Shown here: one piece after another, positions 19,439 to 64,000 of the stretch
Layout: every line of letters starts with the position of its first letter
Numbering within the stretch: the stretch's first letter is position 1
From: Arthrobacter citreus
GTDB taxonomy: Bacteria > Actinomycetota > Actinomycetes > Actinomycetales > Micrococcaceae
Assembly (NCBI RefSeq): GCF_009192745.1
Contig: NZ_VTFV01000003.1
Location: forward strand, 248,001 to 312,000
Direction of reading: 5' to 3'
DNA: 64,000 nucleotides
Notes under the pieces: generated by a model
Told to the model about the DNA's origin: nothing
The model's input: only the letters and a program-made list of their open reading frames with translations
Databases searched by the model: none
Made by a program: the position numbers and the translations under genes

Positions 19439-19945
19439 TCAGGCGAATGCCGGAACCGCGAGATTCCGGAACGCCGAGCCGTGGAAGACGAGCGGCTCAT
19501 GTGCGCCGTCGTGGGTTGAGTAGCCGTGCACGCGGAGCAGGACGACGGCGTGGTCCCCGGCCGGAACCTCGTTCTCAACCGACGTTTCAAGCCAGAGGGC
19601 GGCCTCATCCAGGAACAGGGCGCCGGTGTCGGCTTCGTGCAGGCTCAGCCCGGCGAAGCGGTCGCCGTCGCGGGAAGCGATCTGGCGGCAGACGCCGTCG
19701 TGCCCCGTGCCCAGGATGGACACGCCGATCCGGACCGCAGTCCGAAGCAGCGGCCAGGTGCGGGAAGTATTCTGCACCGCGAACATGACCAGGGGCGGAT
19801 CCATCGAAACGCCCACGGTGAAGGAAGAGGCCACGATTCCCTGCGGTGCGCCGTCGACTTCGGCGCAGAGCGCTGCGATTCCGGAGGGGAAGCGCCCAAA
19901 GGCCTGGCGCAGTGCGTTGGGCTGGAGATCGGTTTCAAGTGTCAT
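19439..19945 (-). CDS. Flavin reductase family protein (FMN-binding split barrel)
   Basis: 168 residues. LRQAFGRFPSGIAALCAEVD, GIVASSFTVGVSMDPPLVMF and QNTSRTWPLL are the standard blocks of NAD(P)H:flavin oxidoreductases that supply reduced FMN or FAD to two-component monooxygenases. FAGLSLHEADTGALFLDEAA is the later substrate-face block. The ATG follows GAGGAA; an upstream in-frame start adds 26 unrelated residues. The gene precedes PhzF copy 1 on the same strand by 37 bp. A partner oxygenase is not adjacent. Confidence 0.88.
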   Translation of the reverse strand: MTLETDLQPNALRQAFGRFPSGIAALCAEVDGAPQGIVASSFTVGVSMDPPLVMFAVQNTSRTWPLLRTAVRIGVSILGTGHDGVCRQIASRDGDRFAGLSLHEADTGALFLDEAALWLETSVENEVPAGDHAVVLLRVHGYSTHDGAHEPLVFHGSAFRNLAVPAFA

Positions 19946-20237
19946 GGAGATTCCTCTGCCTGACGCGCAGCCCGCGGCGCAATACCGCGGAAGACGCTGT
20001 ACTTGCCGGACCGGGAGATCCACCGGAACGGCCGAATCGTCACCTGGAGCACCCCGCTACGGCGAGAGGGTTGCCGTCCAGCCGGCCAGGGCCTGTGGCT
20101 GGAACTCTTGATTCTGGCTACCAATCTAGGAGCCATGATGTCCCGGGGCAAACGTCCGTCACATATCGGCAATGCCGGGCAACAGTTCGTAACGGGCGTA
20201 CTTAACCGGTGGGCGCCCGGATTTGTCCCAGTGCCGC
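19946..20237. other. Intergenic stretch, no convincing gene
   Basis: Upstream of the flavin reductase gene and downstream of the next minus-strand gene. Frames here look random in composition, and I find no clear terminator or promoter. Confidence 0.3.
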
Positions 20238-61922: not shown

Positions 61923-62966
61923 CTAGAAGTAGCTCACACCATTGGTCTTGAAGGGCAGGCCCAGCCCGCCGGCCACTTCCGCCACAACCTCGGGGCAAAA
62001 GAAGTACCACTTTAGTTCCGCGACCAGCGGGGCGCCGAAGGCGGGCCGGAGCCGCAGGACGTCCGAGACCACCTCCGGTGCCCCGGGGGCATTCTTCTGC
62101 CGCTCCCACATCAGGATGATGTCCTCCCCATCGAAGTAGTGGACTGTTGACCGGTGAATCTCTGCGGCGTCCGGACCGAACGTGTCCGTCAGGGAACCGG
62201 CACGGATTTCCTCATGCCCGGTTTCAGTGGCGTTGCCAACCACCTCGGACCGTCCGCTTGCCAGGAACAGGGACACCATGGCGTCAATGTCGTAGGCGTT
62301 GAAAGCCGCGGCCAGCCGGCGCAGCAGCGCCTGGTGTCCGGGATGCCCGGCGGCGGCCCGGGGACCGGGTGCCACGGTTTCGGGGGAAGGTCCTGCAGAG
62401 TCCGTACGCGCCGCCCGCAGCGTGGCCCGGCCGCGGTGCAGGGCGGACTTGACGGCGCCGGGAGTCGTCTCCAGCATCTCGGCAATCTCGGCGAGGGAAT
62501 AGGAGAACACATCCTTGAGGACCACACACGCCCGTTCCCGGGGAGGCAGCAGGTGCAGCAGCTGACGCAGTGCGGACTCGACTGCAAGGGCTGCCAACGG
62601 ATCCTCCGCCTGGTCATCAGGAAGATCAAGGGTGGATTCTGCCCGCTCAAGGGTCACCCGGCCGCTGCGGCGCAGGGAATCGATCCACGTGTTCGTGGCG
62701 ATTCGGACAAGCCATGCCTGGATATTTCGGATCGGTTCATACCGCTGCGATGCTTCCGCCAGGGCCTTCGTCAAGGTCTCCTGCAACAGGTCCTCGGCGT
62801 CCCACACGGTGGGGGTCAGGCTGCGGCAGTAGGCGTACACCGAAGCCCGGACCGGTTCCATCGCCACCAGGAAATCGCGGCGGGCCTGCCGCAGGATCAC
62901 CCTGTTTTCTGCCAAAGCCTGCGTTTCGCCGGGTGTGCCGGCTTCGAAGTCCGTTCCCGTTGTCAT
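61923..62966 (-). CDS. ECF-like sigma factor with C-terminal SnoaL/NTF2-like domain
   Basis: 347 residues. Sigma region 2 at about 35-100 (YAYCRSLTPTVWDAEDLLQE, RNIQAWLVRIATNTWIDSLR) and region 4 at about 125-180 (LPPRERACVVLKDVFSYSLA, EIAEMLETTPGAVKSALHRG). A linker leads to an NTF2-like domain (about 205-345, AAAFNAYDIDAMVSLFLA, STVHYFDGEDIILMWERQ). Such fused sigma factors usually lack a separate anti-sigma gene and are controlled by their own C-terminus; none is adjacent here. ATG chosen after GAGGGG; upstream in-frame ATGs exist. Confidence 0.9.
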   Translation of the reverse strand: MTTGTDFEAGTPGETQALAENRVILRQARRDFLVAMEPVRASVYAYCRSLTPTVWDAEDLLQETLTKALAEASQRYEPIRNIQAWLVRIATNTWIDSLRRSGRVTLERAESTLDLPDDQAEDPLAALAVESALRQLLHLLPPRERACVVLKDVFSYSLAEIAEMLETTPGAVKSALHRGRATLRAARTDSAGPSPETVAPGPRAAAGHPGHQALLRRLAAAFNAYDIDAMVSLFLASGRSEVVGNATETGHEEIRAGSLTDTFGPDAAEIHRSTVHYFDGEDIILMWERQKNAPGAPEVVSDVLRLRPAFGAPLVAELKWYFFCPEVVAEVAGGLGLPFKTNGVSYF

Positions 62967-63176
62967 TGCGCATCCCCTCGCTCTCCCGCCCATGGCGGTG
63001 CCTGATAAAAAGCATGGCACTGTGCCATGCCCTTACCGGGTAGACGCACAGGCAAGCCCAAAAGATACGCCGTAGCCGGCGCCTTCCGCCGCATGGCTGA
63101 AGCGCCGGAGGGGAACTGCGGATGTCCGGTCCGTTACAGCCCTGTGGCGGGCACCGCCGTCGGGCGCTGCCTGTTG

Positions 63177-63182
63177 TAAAGT
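63177..63182 (+). promoter_or_regulatory. -10 element TAAAGT of the leuS leader transcript
   Basis: TAAAGT is followed by GGAGAA and the ATG of the leader peptide, so the transcript would begin at that ATG. No clear -35. Confidence 0.6.
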
Positions 63183-63188
63183 GGAGAA

Positions 63189-63215
63189 ATGACCGCATTG
63201 CTCCTCCTTAGATAG
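63189..63215 (+). CDS. leuS leader peptide MTALLLLR, four consecutive Leu codons
   Basis: An eight-codon frame: ATG ACC GCA TTG CTC CTC CTT AGA TAG. Four different Leu codons in a row, directly upstream of the leucyl-tRNA synthetase gene, is the hallmark of a ribosome-sensing attenuator. The frame is probably translated from a leaderless message. A hairpin begins at its stop codon and a terminator follows. Confidence 0.8.
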   Translation: MTALLLLR

Positions 63216-63237
63216 CCGCGTTTGTATCAAACGCGGC
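63215..63237 (+). promoter_or_regulatory. Hairpin immediately after the leuS leader peptide
   Basis: Perfect 10-bp stem GCCGCGTTTG / CAAACGCGGC with a TAT loop. It starts at the last base of the leader stop codon, so a ribosome at the stop would keep it open while one paused on the Leu codons would not. Confidence 0.8.
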
Positions 63238-63265
63238 AGCCCCTTGCATCTGACGAGGGGCTTTT
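63238..63265 (+). terminator. Attenuator terminator in the leuS leader
   Basis: AGCCCCT / AGGGGCT stem, 11-nt loop, then TTTTG. It adjoins the preceding hairpin. GCTCCTC inside the Leu codons (63200-63206) can also pair with GAGGGGC of its 3' arm (63255-63261). Confidence 0.75.
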
Positions 63266-63361
63266 GTGTGTCTGGGGAAGAGTCAACAGCGCAGGCGGAA
63301 CCGGCGGCACGCCGGAGTCCGCGGATCACCGGGATTTTCTTGAGGACAGAGGCGAAGCATA

Positions 63362-64000
<639 letters not shown>

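Follow-up and report, generated by a model that had tools for sequence, protein, structure and literature searches.

A conserved leader of leucine codons, with two abutting hairpins, upstream of leuS in Arthrobacter citreus and its relatives: a candidate transcription attenuator

The leuS gene of Arthrobacter citreus begins near the end of the window, the whole stretch of 64,000 nucleotides that was analysed, and is preceded by a very short leucine-rich open reading frame and two neighbouring hairpins. The question raised by this locus is whether these elements tie leuS expression to the supply of charged tRNA-Leu and, if they do, how a first hairpin that has no strand in common with the terminator could govern it. 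The box, its spacing, the MTALLLLR frame, the 10-bp hairpin touching the stop codon, the terminator and the distance to leuS, all described in the initial annotation, are read directly in the sequence and are listed here with the other features.

63177..63182, plus strand: -10 box TAAAGT, a sequence reading; GGAGAA (6 nt) separates it from the ATG.
63189..63215, plus strand: putatively leaderless leader ORF MTALLLLR, ATG ACC GCA TTG CTC CTC CTT AGA TAG (8 codons and TAG), a sequence reading.
63201..63209, plus strand: control Leu codons CTC CTC CTT (codons 5-7), assigned from Leu conservation in aligned leaders.
63210..63214, plus strand: gap of 5 nt between the last Leu codon and hairpin A, with the same spacing in distinct leaders.
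63215..63237, plus strand: hairpin A, 10 bp with a loop of 3 (TAT), GCCGCGTTTG-TAT-CAAACGCGGC, from sequence reading, folding and compensatory changes; the proposed antiterminator.
63238..63265, plus strand: hairpin T and TTTT, a putative intrinsic terminator with the stem AGCCCCT...AGGGGCT at 63238-63262, from sequence, terminator scan, folding and compensatory changes.
63362..64000, plus strand: leuS, with a GTG start and extending past the window end (TIGR00396, PF00133).

The downstream gene matches TIGR00396 at 889.7 bits, against a cut-off of 548.4, and its GTG lies 173 nt after the A of the leader ATG and 96 nt downstream of T. Codon 4 of the leader (TTG) likewise encodes leucine, the last control codon, CTT, occupies 63207-63209, hairpin A opens on the final G of the stop codon TAG (63215), and the gap between A and T is 0 nt. 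The 77-nt leader folds better than its own shuffles (z -4.49; 0 of 200 as good), and a terminator scan of 601 bases returned T together with two further sites on the minus strand, 0.6 being expected. The same scan gave no sigma-70 consensus promoter, so that the promoter is called from the -10 box and from the conservation of that box. The leader transcript would start at or beside the ATG, with a 70S ribosome loading on the bare 5' end; the leaderless character that had been ascribed to the frame is probable, given the -10 box 6 nt upstream and an S. lividans counterpart reported as leaderless in the accessible text of PMC8079986. The upstream gene (61923-63020, minus strand) is divergent, and T therefore terminates no neighbouring gene on the plus strand. 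The product of this divergent gene is an ECF sigma factor, in which sigma-70 regions 2 and 4 are recognised along with a weak SnoaL-like C-terminal match that lies below the cut-off. No Rfam family reached its gathering score at the window leader, where none of the three below-threshold matches is a T-box, and none reached the cut-off in the leuS, leuA and ilvB leaders of L173, L150, L108, L093 and L221.

Relatives of the leader were collected at 203 loci, comprising the 80 best of 586 loci in a LeuS protein search, 122 found by a covariance model, R1, and hence biased towards leaders, and the window. R1 had been built from 42 leaders on an RNAalifold structure that included a pairing of AGCC (the stop codon plus CC) with the terminator GGCU, and for that reason it finds leaders largely by sequence. 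By eye, this pairing is lost in the wider set, and it was discarded; base 26 is A, G, C and T in 87, 24, 6 and 4 of 121 leaders of the wider set. Leader frames were assigned by a script. An acceptable frame opened with ATG or GTG placed 5-9 nt after TAnnnT, was 6-25 codons long, had Leu at one or more of codons 4-9 and was followed by GGGG; candidates richer in Leu and those with GCCG were preferred. By this rule a leader precedes leuS in 174 of the 203 loci, 159 of them distinct; 25 loci have no qualifying ORF, including those of Kocuria, Rothia, Yaniella, Auritidibacter and Micrococcus lylae, and four lack the LeuS motif. Within the best 80 of 586 LeuS loci, 58 have a short ORF by the script rule, 50 carry an in-frame Leu codon 5 nt ahead of the GCCG hairpin base, and 38, as well as the window, have the exact pattern M-xxx-LLL-x-stop of 8 codons. 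As these loci were picked by LeuS protein alone, a chance arrangement is unlikely. Within the genus, R1 detects the leader in every one of 29 genomes, with Leu at codons 5-7 in 28 of them (G032 reads LNL, Leu6 being replaced by Asn). At E up to 0.01, 73 of 248 genomes in the order and 98 of 246 in the class have a match to R1; some of these matches are ilvB leaders, and weak ones lie beside ilvB in G121, G129 and G229. Leader rows are related by descent, and such counts are not independent events. The arrangement itself is real, strongly conserved and of a known kind.

The element that is kept most strictly is a distance. Across the 159 distinct leaders the -10 box stands 6 nt from the start codon in 131 and 7 nt in 27 (5-9 nt being permitted by the script), the ORF is 8 codons long in 97, 11 in 37 and 12 in 19, and an in-frame Leu codon lies exactly 5 nt before GCCG in 147. 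Since the ORF length varies whereas the gap and the hairpin are constant, the quantity maintained appears to be the spacing between Leu codon and hairpin. When the 150 rows in frame are aligned on the hairpin, Leu is found at the last three codons before the fixed point in 131, 140 and 147 rows and at the next codon in 0, which fits a boundary at the step past the last Leu codon. This last codon is CTT in 140 of the 150; similarly, an earlier set of 119 leaders, chosen for CCG[CG] or CCGC around base 27, has Leu at codon 7 in 113, spelled CTT in 106. By comparison, CTT makes up 3.0% and CTG 73% of the 4413 Leu codons in 118 LeuS genes from the same loci. Rare control codons occur in other attenuators. 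The reading frame either ends before GCCGC or continues through those bases as xPR or xPRR and a stop, and the bases of hairpin A are thus conserved despite an altered coding role. Variants that keep the last Leu and lose others (MRAILQLS, MRAILVLS, MHNFLPLS) occur together with one that lacks the last Leu (MSAVLRPS), and leaders of the Glutamicibacter type have a single Leu codon, CTA. Two Glutamicibacter variants were read by eye: in L057 the frame is MKPQ, the Leu codons are gone and the spacing between the hairpins is wider, and in L048 hairpin A is apparently missing and a terminator-like stem follows right after the ORF. In L020, L031 and L103 the stop TAG has become CAG and the leader ORF extends through hairpin A, the remaining parts being kept.

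T was found in 158 of the 159 distinct leaders, a set pre-chosen with GGGG downstream, of which 152 have GCCG and 149 a firm base of A. Hairpin A spans 23 nt (10th percentile) to 51 nt (90th percentile), and the gap between A and T measures 0, 1 and 2 nt in 66, 64 and 13 of the 149, that is, 0-2 nt in 143. Even an outward extension of A leaves every base of T untouched in 140 of 147 leaders (the two with gaps over 4 having been left out), and at least three bases are shared in none, which bears out the earlier statement that the first hairpin and the terminator share no strand. Covariation was measured in 42 of 52 leaders, leaving out rows without Leu, near-duplicate or odd (L057, L012, L015, L032, L033, L036, L053, L027, L043 and L060). 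A and T together are paired in 92.9% of cases, against 88.1% in shuffles, and contain 29 doubly changed cells, against 6.2 in shuffles, a number that 0 of 500 shuffles reach; slid versions of the pairing drop to 40-59% paired. Part of the double changes come from Glutamicibacter-type rows, and further pair types (14 against 12.4, reached by 98 of 500 shuffles) are not above the shuffles in these 42 rows. The comparison of relatives that had been suggested for this locus was therefore positive both for Leu codons (exact pattern in 38 of 80) and for compensatory changes in the stems (29 against 6.2).

Attenuation of leuS that depends on Leu-tRNA, in some form, is a likely role of this leader, and the initial annotation was plausible in reading it as Leu-codon attenuation, with which the S. 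lividans leuS leader and the Leu conservation agree. The sharp Leu boundary, the rare CTT, the double changes in A and T, the A-T gap of 0-2 nt and the constant distance between Leu codon and hairpin speak for an attenuator; against it stand the Leu-poor leaders (the CTA type and the MKPQ of L057), the change of Leu6 to Asn in G032 and the loci without ORF. The model proposed here is a ribosome-controlled transcription attenuator that would couple leuS to the supply of charged tRNA-Leu. If Leu-tRNA is scarce, the ribosome would wait at codons 5-7, the last of which is the rare CTT; once this last codon occupies the A site, hairpin A would have its base just beyond the ribosome and so would remain closed. 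T must presumably close down to the U-tract inside the polymerase, where a helix joined to its foot would leave no room; closed A, ending where T starts, may thus block the zipping of T to the U-tract in the exit channel, and the polymerase would continue into leuS. If Leu-tRNA is ample, the ribosome would reach codon 8 and the stop codon and open the base of A, T would close and transcription would stop. A and T would then be mutually exclusive as neighbours within the polymerase, without a common strand.

The geometry of the leader can be compared with this model. Counting from the start of the P-site codon, hairpin A has its first pair at the 12th base when the ribosome holds the last Leu codon in its A site. 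Ribosomal unwinding is placed near that same 12th base, and on this figure waiting at any of the three Leu codons leaves A closed and the next step opens it. The response probably runs towards more LeuS when leucine runs short, and a rise of leuS in starvation would require that closed A impedes T. The best explanation for hairpin A is that it is the antiterminator, an assignment we put forward tentatively, and its action by abutment against T is proposed with slightly greater reserve. The new part would be this geometry, namely the Leu boundary, the rare CTT 5 nt before A, and A abutting T without a shared base.

It could be argued that hairpin A plays the opposite role, helping T to terminate. 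A ribosome stalled at the last Leu codon would then cover the base of A, the tandem stacking of the two hairpins would be lost and termination weakened, with the same physiology. With a ribosome footprint reaching about 15 nt past the start of the P-site codon, the base of A would already be covered at the last Leu codon, to a depth of 4-5 bp that corresponds to the near-constant GCCGC; abutment of A on T in 143 of 149 leaders suits this explanation as well, as does L048, in which the script accepted no T and, by eye, a stem comes straight after the Leu codons, so that a stalled ribosome would mask the stem itself. However, a Leu at the next codon should serve this purpose as well or better, yet it is found in 0 of 150 rows, and T is predicted to be stable without the base of A. 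A helping role for A is accordingly regarded as rather unlikely, and A as antiterminator is kept as the preferred reading.

A further explanation is that T is a fixed attenuator setting leuS expression low, any regulation being exerted through timing, polymerase pausing at A or ribosome-polymerase coupling. This is suggested by the folds, in which the bases under the ribosome were barred from pairing, its cover being set to end 15 nt beyond the start of the P-site codon. T falls below a probability of 0.5 in 4, 0, 2 and 3 of 152 leaders with no ribosome and with the ribosome at Leu5, at Leu7 and at the stop, respectively, and a first run over 114 leaders agrees. As T is nearly equally probable at all ribosome positions, no switch is seen in these folds, which represent the equilibrium of RNA without polymerase. 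Neither by eye nor in the ribosome-blocked folds was a conserved classical 2:3 antiterminator found. In these models, then, there is no conserved antiterminator sharing a strand with the terminator, and T appears indifferent to ribosome position at equilibrium, kinetic switching lying beyond their scope; the claim that the logic of the leader is not classical gains a broader ground in this way. The Leu boundary and the rare last codon nevertheless indicate a step that depends on decoding, and a fixed attenuator is unlikely.

Translational control has been proposed for the LEU element of leuA, with a pseudoknot and pairing to the Shine-Dalgarno sequence (accessible part of PMC1262725), and by analogy the Leu run could mask the leuS ribosome-binding site. 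The 173-nt fold of the window does pair the Leu codons with bases just upstream of the leuS start, and the leuA leader of the same genome (L093 154-245), VRAEILLLSCRGEATQPTV, shows the same layout of CTT, AGC and hairpin, reading CTC CTT CTT AGC TG with a CCGC hairpin 5 nt after CTT. That leader lacks a clear U-tract and folds no better than its shuffles (z -0.81), and S. lividans leuA is described as having no typical terminator in the accessible text of PMC8079986; leuS, unlike the leuA element, has a clear terminator. Moreover, pairing of the Leu run with the leuS ribosome-binding region is unsupported in 102 leaders with a script-guessed leuS start (-9.02 matched, -9.11 permuted, -8.97 shuffled), despite the fold seen in the window, and control of this kind is improbable for leuS. 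The tail of the leuA leader, TTTGTGTTGCCCGG, resembles the leuS tail of relatives, TTTTGTGTGTCCGGG; in alignment A1 of the leuS leaders a conserved tail, GTGTGTCCGGGG or similar, follows the U-tract, beyond any terminated RNA.

The weakest proposal takes up a pairing noted in the initial annotation, in which ribosome-free Leu codons bind the 3' arm of T, and makes it the antiterminator; it is very improbable: although this pairing is the best fold of the window leader up to the U-tract, T has a probability below 0.5 in only 3 of 29 leaders of the genus (one being the window's own, at 0.44 without ribosome and among the few that disfavour T, and another identical to it), covariation is absent (71.8% paired against 71.5% in shuffles), 97 leaders show no co-adaptation between species (the value being -9.18 both matched and permuted), and a ribosome on the Leu codons would promote termination in starvation, which is the wrong sign. 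The pairing is local to a few genomes.

A leuS attenuator with Leu codons is as such of a kind already known from Streptomyces. Attenuators of leuS were predicted in S. avermitilis and S. coelicolor by Seliverstov 2005 and termed classical, with an antiterminator; the same source recalls that control-codon changes in the S. coelicolor ilvB leader were without effect, which counts against an attenuator reading (both from the accessible part of PMC1262725). In S. lividans the leuS leader encodes LeuL2, MRAVRLLLSEPR, which is leaderless by RNA-seq and followed by a hairpin and uridines (accessible text of PMC8079986); among 20 fetched stretches, MRAVRLLLSEPR is identical in L173, L174 and L178 and one residue off in L175 and L179. 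The Streptomyces and window leaders have in common the gene, the Leu-rich uORF, the hairpin and the terminator, and R1 matches both groups. They differ in that the LeuL2 ORF stops at codon 13 and the window ORF at codon 9, and, whereas the Streptomyces leuS leader was called classical in 2005, no conserved shared-strand antiterminator was found here. The C. glutamicum ilvBNC leader is also close, its uORF starting one nucleotide from the transcript start, with CUU among the control codons and hairpins adjacent as in leuS; mutation of the terminator increases expression seven- to eight-fold, and the adjoining hairpin is modelled as an antiterminator that forms upon ribosome pause (accessible portion of PMC11857589). 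In that model, however, the hairpins compete for a shared GCC, with a third hairpin, whereas 140 of 147 leuS leaders have no common base; the precedent is inexact, as the model needs the shared GCC. Compared with the classical attenuators of trp and his, the leuS leader has the control-codon ORF, here rich in Leu, and the terminator before the gene, but lacks a shared-strand antiterminator in equilibrium folding. Poly-cysteine leaderless attenuators of mycobacteria have reportedly been described by Canestrari in 2020; going by the title, they resemble the leuS leader in their short leaderless ORF of control codons and differ in the amino acid, which is cysteine.

We found no published leuS attenuator for Micrococcaceae in a search whose coverage mostly excluded subscription journals, and earlier predictions may exist. 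Within their accessible parts, PMC10272879 has no leuS in its main text and leuS is not evident in PMC11109978; it is named in those of PMC3896937, PMC9413887 and PMC11995493.

If the reading of A as a wedge is true, the Leu boundary marks to one codon where the ribosome must stand. If abutment is true, attenuation need not depend on competing base pairs, searches requiring overlapping hairpins would overlook such switches, and many actinobacteria would possess a leucine sensor for leucyl-tRNA synthetase, together with a reason for the strict rare-codon rule. It is conceivable, and more speculative, that leuS, ilvB and perhaps leuA represent a widespread actinobacterial class of attenuators in which antiterminator and terminator have no common sequence, A, set 5 nt from a rare last Leu codon, is a removable wedge at the foot of T and exclusivity is imposed by the polymerase exit channel. 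The ilvB leader of the same genome (L221 1132-1247), MQIVTVVLSKRVA, reads GTC GTC CTT AGC AA, followed by hairpin A and T with an A-T gap of 0. Of 30 ilvB loci, most were missed by the strict script and eight were returned by a looser one, a further four (L236, L239, L241 and L246) being read by eye. In the best fold of the eight, hairpin A lies 5 nt after the last Leu in four (L225, L226, L228, L248) and 3 nt after it in L234; it is missing in L231, L235 and L242, where it is drawable by eye only. The extension of the layout to ilvB is therefore a lead. Upstream of trpS in the same genome, the 320 nt contain two short ORFs, neither of them Trp-rich.

Two observations lie apart from the leader. 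The leader and a Micrococcaceae-like leuS (89% identity over the matched part) also occur in L011, whose record bears the name Sporosarcina beigongshangi; this assembly is probably mislabelled or contaminated. In the window, a SAM-IV riboswitch (19994-20113, minus strand, 90.5 bits) lies ahead of a minus-strand ORF near 19945.
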